From contig NZ_FNQN01000010.1 of NCBI RefSeq assembly GCF_900107645.1, positions 1 to 64,000 on the forward strand: a stretch of 64,000 nucleotides of DNA, in the 5' to 3' direction. Shown here piece by piece: positions 58,016 through 62,781 of this stretch; the first letter of the stretch is position 1, and each line of letters opens with the position of its first letter. Origin of the DNA: Desulfuromusa kysingii. GTDB lineage: Bacteria > Desulfobacterota > Desulfuromonadia > Desulfuromonadales > Geopsychrobacteraceae. The translations under genes were made by a program, and so were the position numbers. The notes beneath the pieces are model-generated. The model saw only the letters and a program-made list of their open reading frames with translations, searched no databases and had not been told where the DNA came from.

Positions 58016-58909
58016 CTATTGATTCGTATTTTTCTTCTGCTTTTCATAATCGATGAGAAAATCGACAAAGGCTTGATTCGCCATTGAAAGATGACAACTC
58101 TTTTTCCAGGCTATGGCAAAATCAAAAATAATTGGCGGGTTAAAAGAAATGCCTTTAAACCTCGGATCTCCCTCAATGACTGGCCGTAAAAAACTGGTAA
58201 CTCCATGGCCAGCACTGACAAGATTTTTGATTAATGGGATTAAATTTGTTTCAAAAATAACATTAGAATCAATATTTTCGGCTTTACAGGTTTTTTCAAT
58301 TAACTCCCTCTGAACGGCTCCCCCCGTAAAGACCAATAATGGTTCGCGGATGAATTTTTTGTATGTGATCGTTTCATGCTGTGCCAGTGGGTGTAAAACG
58401 GAGGCACAAGCGACGATTTCATCGGTGAGGAAATGGCGTCCAGTCATGTTGTTTGGCATATTCTCCAGCATAACAACCCCCATATCCAGTTGATCTTCTT
58501 CTATCAATTGTTCGATTTTGCGCATTCCAAACACCTGTACAGAAAAATTGAGGTTGGGATGTCGTTGCTTAAAAGCCTCAATAACTTTAGGGAAGTAATA
58601 CATACCAAGGGTATTCGTGACCCCCAGCCGAACTTCTCCCCTTTCCATTTGACGCAATTCGACCATTTCTAATTCTGCTTTTTTGAATTGTCCCAGAATG
58701 ATCCGAGCGTTTTTGAGTAAGACCTTCCCCTCGGTCGTGAGTGATACTGACTTGTCTTTGCGCATAAAAAGCGACATTTGCAACTCTTCTTCAAGTTTTT
58801 TGATCGTATTGCTCACCGCAGGTTGAACAATGTTTAGCGACCTTGCCGCCTTTGTAAAATTGCCCACTTCGGCGACTGCGACAAAAACCTGTAACTGTCT
58901 TGAATTCAT
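58016..58909 (-). CDS. LysR-family regulator divergent from the amidohydrolase operon
   Basis: A 297-residue LysR protein with the HTH in VGNFTKAARSLNIVQPAVSNTIKKLEEEL (about 15-43) and an effector domain with typical blocks (MERGEVRLGVTNTLG, MGVVMLENMPNN, GHGVTSFL). The ATG at 58909 follows AGGAG with 8-nt spacing; an upstream in-frame ATG is not needed. It faces the amidohydrolase-racemase/aspartase-DcuC genes across 227 bp that contain a perfect dyad at 58955-58973, so it probably activates that operon in response to its substrate. Confidence 0.93.
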   Translation of the reverse strand: MNSRQLQVFVAVAEVGNFTKAARSLNIVQPAVSNTIKKLEEELQMSLFMRKDKSVSLTTEGKVLLKNARIILGQFKKAELEMVELRQMERGEVRLGVTNTLGMYYFPKVIEAFKQRHPNLNFSVQVFGMRKIEQLIEEDQLDMGVVMLENMPNNMTGRHFLTDEIVACASVLHPLAQHETITYKKFIREPLLVFTGGAVQRELIEKTCKAENIDSNVIFETNLIPLIKNLVSAGHGVTSFLRPVIEGDPRFKGISFNPPIIFDFAIAWKKSCHLSMANQAFVDFLIDYEKQKKNTNQ

Positions 58910-58954
58910 GCGGCACACTCCTGACGATAACAATTAGTGATCACTGGGATAAAA

Positions 58955-60573: not shown

Positions 60574-62781
60574 ATGAAAACTAAAACAGTCGGCATTCTC
60601 GGTGGAATGGGTCCAGAGGCAACGGCCTCTCTCTACCAGAAAATCATCAGACATACCGTGGCGACAACGGATCAACAGCACCTGCATGTCATCATTGATG
60701 CAGATCCAAGCGTTCCAGATCGAACGGAGGCGATTCTGCATAACGGCGCCTCACCGGTACAAGCTCTCGAAACCATGGCACTACGGCTTAAAAACGCAGG
60801 TGCAGACGTTTTGATCCTGCCCTGCAATACCGCACATTTTTTTATTGATGCTGTTCTTCGTGACGTCAACCTCCCTTTTGTCAACATGATTGATGAAACG
60901 GTTCGAGTCTGTCAGGCCATGTTATCCAAAACAGGCCGCGTTGGGCTTTTAGCTACGAGTGGAACACTGGCTGCCAAAGTTTACCATGATCGTTTTTTAA
61001 CAACGGATATGGAGCTGCTCGTTCCTACAGATATCGACCAGCAAAAATTGATGGATGGAATCTACAACGGAGTTAAGGCTGGCCGCCTTGATTATGGGGC
61101 GAAGCTCCTAAAAGAGGTAGCACAGAGCTTGATAGCGAAAGGAGCTCAACTGATTATCGGTGGCTGCACCGAAATTCCACTGGCCATCAACGATAAAGAT
61201 TTAGAAGTTCCTTTTGTCGATACATTGGATGTTTTGGCAGCTGCAACAGTTGCTTATGCTCAAGGACTGAAAATATCTGCAGACGGAGATACCGCAGTTA
61301 ACAAAATCAGTTTTCTGTCCACAATTCAGGACATTAACAAACGACCAACCATTGAATCAGGAGTGAGTACCATGACTAAAGAGTACCGATTAGAACATGA
61401 CCTACTTGGTGAACGCAAAGTGTCAAATAACTGTTATTACGGTGTTCAGACCTTACGCGCAAAGGAAAATTTTGCCATGACGGGAATTCCTATTTCATCA
61501 ACACCATCAATGATTATTGCTCTTGCCTACGTGAAAAAAGCGGCGGCATTAACCAATCTTGAACTGGGTTTATTGAATACCAAAACGGCCAAAGCAATTT
61601 CCGAAGCCTGTGATCAGCTGATCGACGGACAGCATCATGACCAATTTGTCGTCGATGTTTTTCAAGGCGGAGCTGGAACCTCCACCAACATGAACGCCAA
61701 TGAGGTGATCGCTAATCTGGCTTTGGAGATTCTTGGGGAAGAAAAAGGTGATTACCGCCATTGCCATCCAAACAATGATGTTAACTGTTCGCAATCGACT
61801 AATGATGTTTATCCAACCGCCTTTCGAATTGCTCTGCATCTTGAATTAAAAAAATTGCTCGACAGCATGCGGGTATTGCAGCAGAGCTTTGCCCAAAAAG
61901 GGACCGAATTCGCGGATGTATTGAAAATGGGGCGTACCCAGTTACAGGACGCAGTGCCAATGACTCTGGGACAGGAATTTGCGGCTTATGCGACGACGAC
62001 CGGTGCCGATATCAATCAGGTTGTTGAAGCTCAGAAACTGATCCATGAAATCAATCTCGGTGCGACTGCTATCGGCACTGGGCTGAATTCACCACCGGAT
62101 TATACCAAAAAGGTGACCGAATGTTTACGGACCTTGACCGGGATTCCTTTGAAATCTTCAGCCGACCTCGTGGCCGCGACTTGGGATACCGGTGACTATA
62201 TACAAGTTTCTGGGACCTTGAAACGATTTGCCATCAAGCTATCAAAAATTTGTAACGATCTTCGTTTGCTCTCTTCTGGTCCACGAGCCGGGTTTAACGA
62301 AATTAACTTGCCTAAAATGCAACCAGGCTCATCGATTATGCCGGGGAAGGTAAACCCGGTTATTCCAGAAGTCGTGAATCAAATCGCCTACCAGGTCGCC
62401 GGGGCTGATCTGACCATTGCTATGGCTTCAGAAAATGGACAACTTCAGCTGAACGTTATGGAGCCAGTGATTGCTTATAACTTATTTCAATCAATTTTAC
62501 TCCTGAATCGGGCGTGTCTGACTCTGTCCGAAAAATGCATCGTTGGCATCACCGCTAATCGGGAACATTGTCAAGAGTTGGTGAGTCGCAGCATTGGAAT
62601 TGTCACGGCATTGAATCCTTGTATTGGCTATGAAAATGCGTCTGCCGTGGCAAAAGAAGCGTTGGAAAATGGTCGTTCTGTCTATGAGTTGATCTTGGAG
62701 AAGCATCTTCTCTCTAAAGAGAAGCTGGATGAGATTCTCTCAGCAGAAAACATGATGCATCCACATTTTATCAGGGCCTGA
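60574..62781 (+). CDS. Aspartate/glutamate racemase fused to aspartate ammonia-lyase
   Basis: One uninterrupted 735-codon frame. Residues 1-232 are an Asp/Glu/hydantoin-type racemase with VGILGGMGPEATASLY and both catalytic cysteines (Cys84 in LPCNTAHFF, Cys198 in GGCTEIPLA). A linker (233-266) joins it to a full aspartase (267-735) with GAGTSTNMNANEVIAN, NDVNCSQSTNDVYPT and the signature GSSIMPGKVNP (585-595). Together they would turn D-Asp into L-Asp and then fumarate and ammonia. An internal ATG at 61372 (Met267) has AGGAG 8 nt upstream, so the aspartase may also be made alone. DcuC and an amidohydrolase gene flank it. Confidence 0.93.
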   Translation: MKTKTVGILGGMGPEATASLYQKIIRHTVATTDQQHLHVIIDADPSVPDRTEAILHNGASPVQALETMALRLKNAGADVLILPCNTAHFFIDAVLRDVNLPFVNMIDETVRVCQAMLSKTGRVGLLATSGTLAAKVYHDRFLTTDMELLVPTDIDQQKLMDGIYNGVKAGRLDYGAKLLKEVAQSLIAKGAQLIIGGCTEIPLAINDKDLEVPFVDTLDVLAAATVAYAQGLKISADGDTAVNKISFLSTIQDINKRPTIESGVSTMTKEYRLEHDLLGERKVSNNCYYGVQTLRAKENFAMTGIPISSTPSMIIALAYVKKAAALTNLELGLLNTKTAKAISEACDQLIDGQHHDQFVVDVFQGGAGTSTNMNANEVIANLALEILGEEKGDYRHCHPNNDVNCSQSTNDVYPTAFRIALHLELKKLLDSMRVLQQSFAQKGTEFADVLKMGRTQLQDAVPMTLGQEFAAYATTTGADINQVVEAQKLIHEINLGATAIGTGLNSPPDYTKKVTECLRTLTGIPLKSSADLVAATWDTGDYIQVSGTLKRFAIKLSKICNDLRLLSSGPRAGFNEINLPKMQPGSSIMPGKVNPVIPEVVNQIAYQVAGADLTIAMASENGQLQLNVMEPVIAYNLFQSILLLNRACLTLSEKCIVGITANREHCQELVSRSIGIVTALNPCIGYENASAVAKEALENGRSVYELILEKHLLSKEKLDEILSAENMMHPHFIRA

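Follow-up and report, generated by a model that had tools for sequence, protein, structure and literature searches.

Desulfuromusa kysingii carries an open frame in which two ordinary enzymes, an amino acid racemase and an aspartase (aspartate ammonia-lyase), are truly joined in frame, and this joining is a singleton in all the genomes searched. The frame lies in the window, which is the whole stretch of 64,000 nucleotides that was analyzed, and the coordinates of its features are collected in Table 1. Probably, two genes of one operon have run on into each other in this lineage, and the start of the aspartase gene has been retained internally. A scan of the frame found no stop between the two halves, and Pfam places Asp_Glu_race at residues 9-224, Lyase_1 at 279-610, and FumaraseC_C at 676-729. 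A preliminary description of this DNA had proposed such an in-frame fusion of a complete racemase with both catalytic cysteines, a 34-residue linker, and a complete aspartase. The 735 stop-free codons and the detection of both domains by Pfam and NCBIfam bear out the fusion itself, both halves are complete as proposed, and the linker length is about right, with racemase homology that stops at ~229 and aspartase homology that starts at ~267-272. The fusion is present as one copy in its own genome, and other contigs of that genome feature racemase-like genes as well as another lyase of the aspartase family, with 44% identity.

Table 1. Coordinates of the racemase-aspartase frame, its parts, and the neighboring genes.
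Feature	Position	Strand	Remarks
Divergent LysR-type regulator	58016..58933	-	
Metal-dependent amidohydrolase (Amidohydro_1), 470 aa	59137..60549	+	upstream of fusion
Racemase-linker-aspartase frame	60574..62781	+	735 codons, ATG start, TGA stop, no internal stop
PLP-independent Asp/Glu-type racemase domain	60574..61269	+	residues 1-232, homology 4-229; Cys84, Cys198, Arg50, Lys168
Linker	61270..61371	+	codons 233-266; no homology detected
Shine-Dalgarno-like AGGAGT	61359..61364	+	7 nt before aspartase ATG; anti-SD duplex -6.9 kcal/mol
Aspartase (aspartate ammonia-lyase)	61372..62781	+	Met267 to stop; GSSIMPGKVNP at 585-595
C4-dicarboxylate transporter DcuC, 416 aa	62891..64000	+	extends beyond window end
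Downstream amidase/amidohydrolase stretch of operon	G000:C8 64153-66697 (L173:1354-3898)		

The racemase half (residues 4-229) is a full-length match to the TIGR00035 amino acid racemase model with 210.9 bits against a cutoff of 93.1, and its Cys84 and Cys198 are invariant in an alignment of 30 racemases. Its best solved relative is the aspartate racemase of Pyrococcus horikoshii (1JFL), which matches over its full length with 201 bits and has both catalytic cysteines in common with it; however, the 1JFL chain ends after 228 residues, whereas the racemase in the window runs on into the aspartase. Arg50 and Lys168 align with Arg48 and Lys164 of 1JFL, which we take to be carboxylate/substrate-binding residues. 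Arg50 is invariant across the 30 aligned racemases, and since Lys168 lies outside the invariant or nearly invariant columns, its presence weakly supports aspartate as the substrate. The cysteate racemase model NF052483 (CuyB) scores 249.8 on the racemase half against a cutoff of 190. We rejected the specific assignment to cysteate racemase: 1JFL, deposited as an aspartate racemase, scores 250.2 on this model, which thus fails to discriminate. The substrate of the racemase half is likely aspartate, since its fused partner is an aspartase.

The aspartase half (residues 272-731) exceeds the cutoff of the TIGR00839 aspA equivalog model with 720.4 bits against 681.2. The GSSIMPGKVNP loop features Ser587, Lys592, and Asn594, and Ser587 is invariant in 22 aligned aspartase sequences. 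The best solved relatives are the aspartases 6WNG and 1JSW, with 594 and 555 bits. The aspartase in the window has the same full length and the same intact signature loop as AspA proteins, but it differs from them in sitting in frame behind a racemase, with its own start codon and a Shine-Dalgarno-like site kept inside the frame. The ATG at 61372 (codon 267) coincides with the usual aspartase start. Among the long frames of the window, which are mechanical and not curated genes, an anti-SD energy as strong as that of the site before this ATG is found for 17 of 364 other internal in-frame ATGs versus 17 of 46 gene-start regions, each represented by its best ATG within the first 50 codons. The racemase start has a weak Shine-Dalgarno-like site (-2.2). 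Judged from these signals, the aspartase is likely also made separately from Met267, and the internal site could be a chance match, as the 17 of 364 internal ATGs that are equally strong indicate. A scan for promoters and terminators revealed no excess over shuffled sequences.

The linker has no clear coding signature. Its codon score ranks at the 18th percentile among gene segments, while 38% of stop-free intergenic segments equal or exceed it, so the score does not tell coding from intergenic sequence; in the window, 23% of intergenic frames of 34 codons are stop-free. Distinct racemase matches numbered 57, of which two are the first domains of tandem proteins and were left out of the tail count. 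The remaining 55 comprise 46 that end within 1-19 residues past position 229 and nine with tails of 26-54 residues. The three nearest racemases (47-48% identical) feature 26-residue tails past this position, so a native racemase tail could supply much of the linker. These tails showed no significant likeness to the linker of the window, as 27, 22, and 110 of 200 shuffles reached the respective scores. Codons ~233-266 may thus be a former spacer, or a native variable racemase tail followed by a short spacer.

Stop-free stretches of this length are found before many aspartases that stand alone. A run of at least 34 stop-free in-frame codons precedes the start of 31 of 98 stand-alone lyases of the aspartase family, a count that was obtained from 131 loci by leaving out nine duplicates, three copies of the window's own locus, two loci open at the 5' end, and 19 fusions with a cNMP-binding-type domain. 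Such runs occur in 25 of the 71 lyases with at least 54% identity and in six of the 27 below this identity, lyases that may be class II fumarases. Six of the 25 aspartases have at least 100 stop-free upstream codons, which may include divergent extra domains. Since such runs precede so many stand-alone aspartases, a stop-free spacer would not be rare once a racemase stop had been lost. The AlphaFold2 model of the fusion is mostly confident over the aspartase, and the lowest mean pLDDT values (22-36) are found in the blocks over residues 231-270, which have no secondary structure. The pLDDT is below 50 across most of the racemase; the 20 rows of the alignment used were all aspartases except for the query, and the model is therefore uninformative on the racemase fold and on the assembly of the protein. 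We also aligned racemases and aspartases jointly to the fusion, but dropped this alignment because the racemases were scattered across the aspartase part.

A search for other proteins with the same two-domain order, which the preliminary description had put forward as a check, returned the window's own genome alone at the thresholds used, and a second lineage that would make this a conserved fusion family was not found in the genomes searched. Among the matches listed from 60 genomes of relatives, the window's own is the only one that spans both halves, and among 136 genomes of the order the fusion was found in its own genome only (E <= 1e-135). The nearest aspartases (75% identity in G022 and 72% in G458) align from residue 267, and their open frames of 517 and 497 codons are too short for both domains. 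In the sample of the phylum, 19 of 395 genomes, the window's own included, have the racemase (E <= 1e-30), and the frames of the other 18 span 242-317 codons. The fusion was likewise not found in a phylum sample around a Variovorax MAG, where 29 of 378 genomes have the racemase (E <= 1e-25), nor in the samples around a Chloroflexi MAG, Amycolatopsis, and Hymenobacter, where 10 of 201, 6 of 198, and 8 of 198 do. A 756-codon frame from an actinomycete was considered as a second fusion and rejected: the match is confined to the C-terminal end of this high-GC frame, and no aspartase is evident in the frame or in the locus. The other long frames, of 657 and 616 codons, are below the length needed for a racemase and an aspartase. 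The fusion may exist elsewhere, either in lineages that are distant or were not sampled, or as matches that fall short of the thresholds. A search of an open-access literature collection gave no paper that describes a racemase fused to an aspartase.

Among the top 80 of at least 589 loci on genome-wide contigs, some with flanks that ended at contig ends, a racemase gene lies near the aspartase in one, ~4 kb away and separate. Nine racemase loci of 11-14 kb each were searched for homologues of the window's genes for the aspartase, the amidohydrolase, DcuC, the carbamoylase, and the M20D enzyme, and none was found, so the gene pair of the window has no close precursor there. The preliminary description had reasoned that the fusion would be called into question if close relatives always had two separate genes; no close relative with the pair was found, and the distant neighboring pairs that were examined are two genes.

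These distant pairs are located on plasmids. Matches to the query were found in 605 of 72,556 plasmid records, and nine of these have a single place that accounts for 80% or more of the query (eight among the matches listed). The three pairs examined, from Burkholderia, Paraburkholderia, and Phaeobacter, each feature a racemase and an aspartase as two adjoining genes. As in the window, both activities adjoin, and both annotated records show LysR regulators alongside, together with a dicarboxylate/amino acid symporter. Unlike the window, they are two genes with another type of transporter, and the aspartase comes first in Phaeobacter. In ten named genomes or records, an in-line arrangement of both halves, interrupted by one TGA, was found only on the Paraburkholderia plasmid. 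On this plasmid, P. phymatum pBPHY01, the racemase ends with TGA and the ATG of the aspartase follows 14 codons on in the same frame, so the loss of one stop would give a similar fusion. Where annotated, the plasmid racemases have 493 and 477 aa, and those of both Burkholderiaceae records are tandem-domain proteins. These tandem two-domain racemases beside an aspartase (L136:4236-5717, 493 aa, and L137/L148) are an observation in their own right.

The gene order around the fusion is LysR (divergent), amidohydrolase, racemase-aspartase, DcuC, hydantoinase/carbamoylase-family amidase, and M20D-type amidohydrolase. Among the matches listed for the upstream amidohydrolase, none of 25 NCBIfam families (of 58) reached its cutoff. 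At E <= 1e-60, one other copy of this protein was found in the 395 genomes of the phylum (own included), with 40% identity and in a different neighborhood. Past the end of the window, the amidase matches TIGR01879 with 456 bits against a cutoff of 204 and is a relative of the N-carbamoyl-L-amino acid hydrolase 3N5F, and the M20D-type amidohydrolase is related to the aminobenzoyl-glutamate utilization protein 3IO1. These gene families suggest that the operon serves to break down an aspartate derivative, N-substituted or cyclic, to fumarate. An N-carbamoyl, N-acyl, or cyclic precursor would be cleaved by the amidohydrolases upstream and downstream of the fusion to give L- or D-aspartate, the racemase would convert D-aspartate to L-aspartate, the aspartase would convert L-aspartate to fumarate and ammonia, and DcuC would move C4-dicarboxylates.

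The explanation that we consider probable is that the racemase gene lost its stop (or shifted frame at its end), which joined neighboring genes for an Asp-type racemase and an aspartase, and that the ~34 intervening residues would be the former spacer, perhaps along with a non-conserved tail native to the racemase. Provided that the sequence is correct, ribosomes that start at 60574 and finish would make a 735-residue racemase-aspartase protein, while the Shine-Dalgarno-like site and ATG at 61359-61374 would probably also yield the aspartase alone; such an internal start would therefore lead to tetramers that mix fused and unfused subunits. We infer the lost racemase stop and do not see it, because no relative has the operon with both genes still separate. 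The idea that a missed stop or an indel within 61258-61371 masks two ordinary genes draws on the fact that the fusion is a singleton and that the other two frames have stops near the end of the racemase (61268 TGA and 61299 TAA). However, the contig has 159,814 bases in a 27-contig assembly that is rated 100% complete and 2.55% contaminated, and the two halves share one frame with no other damage, so that a sequence or assembly error appears improbable.

The preliminary description went further and proposed that the fusion couples racemization of D-aspartate directly to deamination. The part of this proposal that stands is the pathway, which is sensible and whose genes adjoin on the three plasmids; a purpose-built fusion enzyme is a possible reading. 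Such a selected bifunctional enzyme would tether the racemase to the aspartase tetramer for efficient conversion of D-aspartate to fumarate, with the linker as a functional tether. In its favor, the residues of both active sites are in place, no secondary structure is predicted for the linker, and the N-terminus of aspartase accepts added domains. We regard it as unlikely, though deserving of some weight, as the fusion occurs in one genome only among those searched, the aspartase keeps its Shine-Dalgarno-like site and ATG, and a clear coding signature is missing from the linker. A more elaborate version, in which an internal ribosome-binding site sets the ratio of tethered to free aspartase in a selected D-aspartate-to-fumarate enzyme that serves an operon for N-substituted or cyclic aspartate, is unlikely. 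A substrate other than aspartate for the racemase half, such as cysteate, so that the halves form no pathway, is quite improbable: the cutoff of the CuyB model is exceeded and Lys168 lies outside the invariant or nearly invariant columns, but 1JFL scores equally on that model, both Arg50 and Lys168 have their counterparts in 1JFL, and the fused partner is an aspartase. With its standard halves and its occurrence as a singleton, the fusion changes little in the knowledge of either enzyme. A fused protein that is made and active would be a ready-made two-step catalyst from D-aspartate to fumarate, and a snapshot of how one stop loss within an operon can create a bifunctional enzyme, with the start of the downstream gene preserved.

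A second type of aspartase fusion was observed in several phyla. Here, ~150 residues that form a cNMP-binding-type (CRP-like) domain precede the aspartase in frame, an arrangement found in 19 distinct loci; Pfam PF00027 was detected in all six that were scanned (L089, L021, L038, L048, L026, and L058). Six of the 19 are from the order of the window (L089, at 1048-2919, and L142-L146). The other thirteen (L021, L022, L026, L031, L035, L038, L048, L052, L054, L058, L064, L065, and L079) lie on contigs whose labels include Draconibacterium, Melioribacter, Chthoniobacter, Akkermansia, Chloroflexi, Gemmatimonadetes, and Gammaproteobacteria. These proteins resemble the fusion in the window in that the extra domain is at the N-terminus of the aspartase; however, the domain is of a regulatory type and not an enzyme, and the arrangement is recurrent. 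Since the aspartase N-terminus tolerates an added domain in these proteins, the racemase fusion is structurally plausible. A narrow literature search found no paper on a cNMP-domain aspartase. The domain architecture suggests that the cNMP-fused aspartase is under direct nucleotide or ligand control. Additionally, two aspartases from Marinobacterium (L039 and L061) are preceded by 141-156 stop-free codons, and the translation of this stretch resembles a divergent extra domain that the cNMP profile missed.
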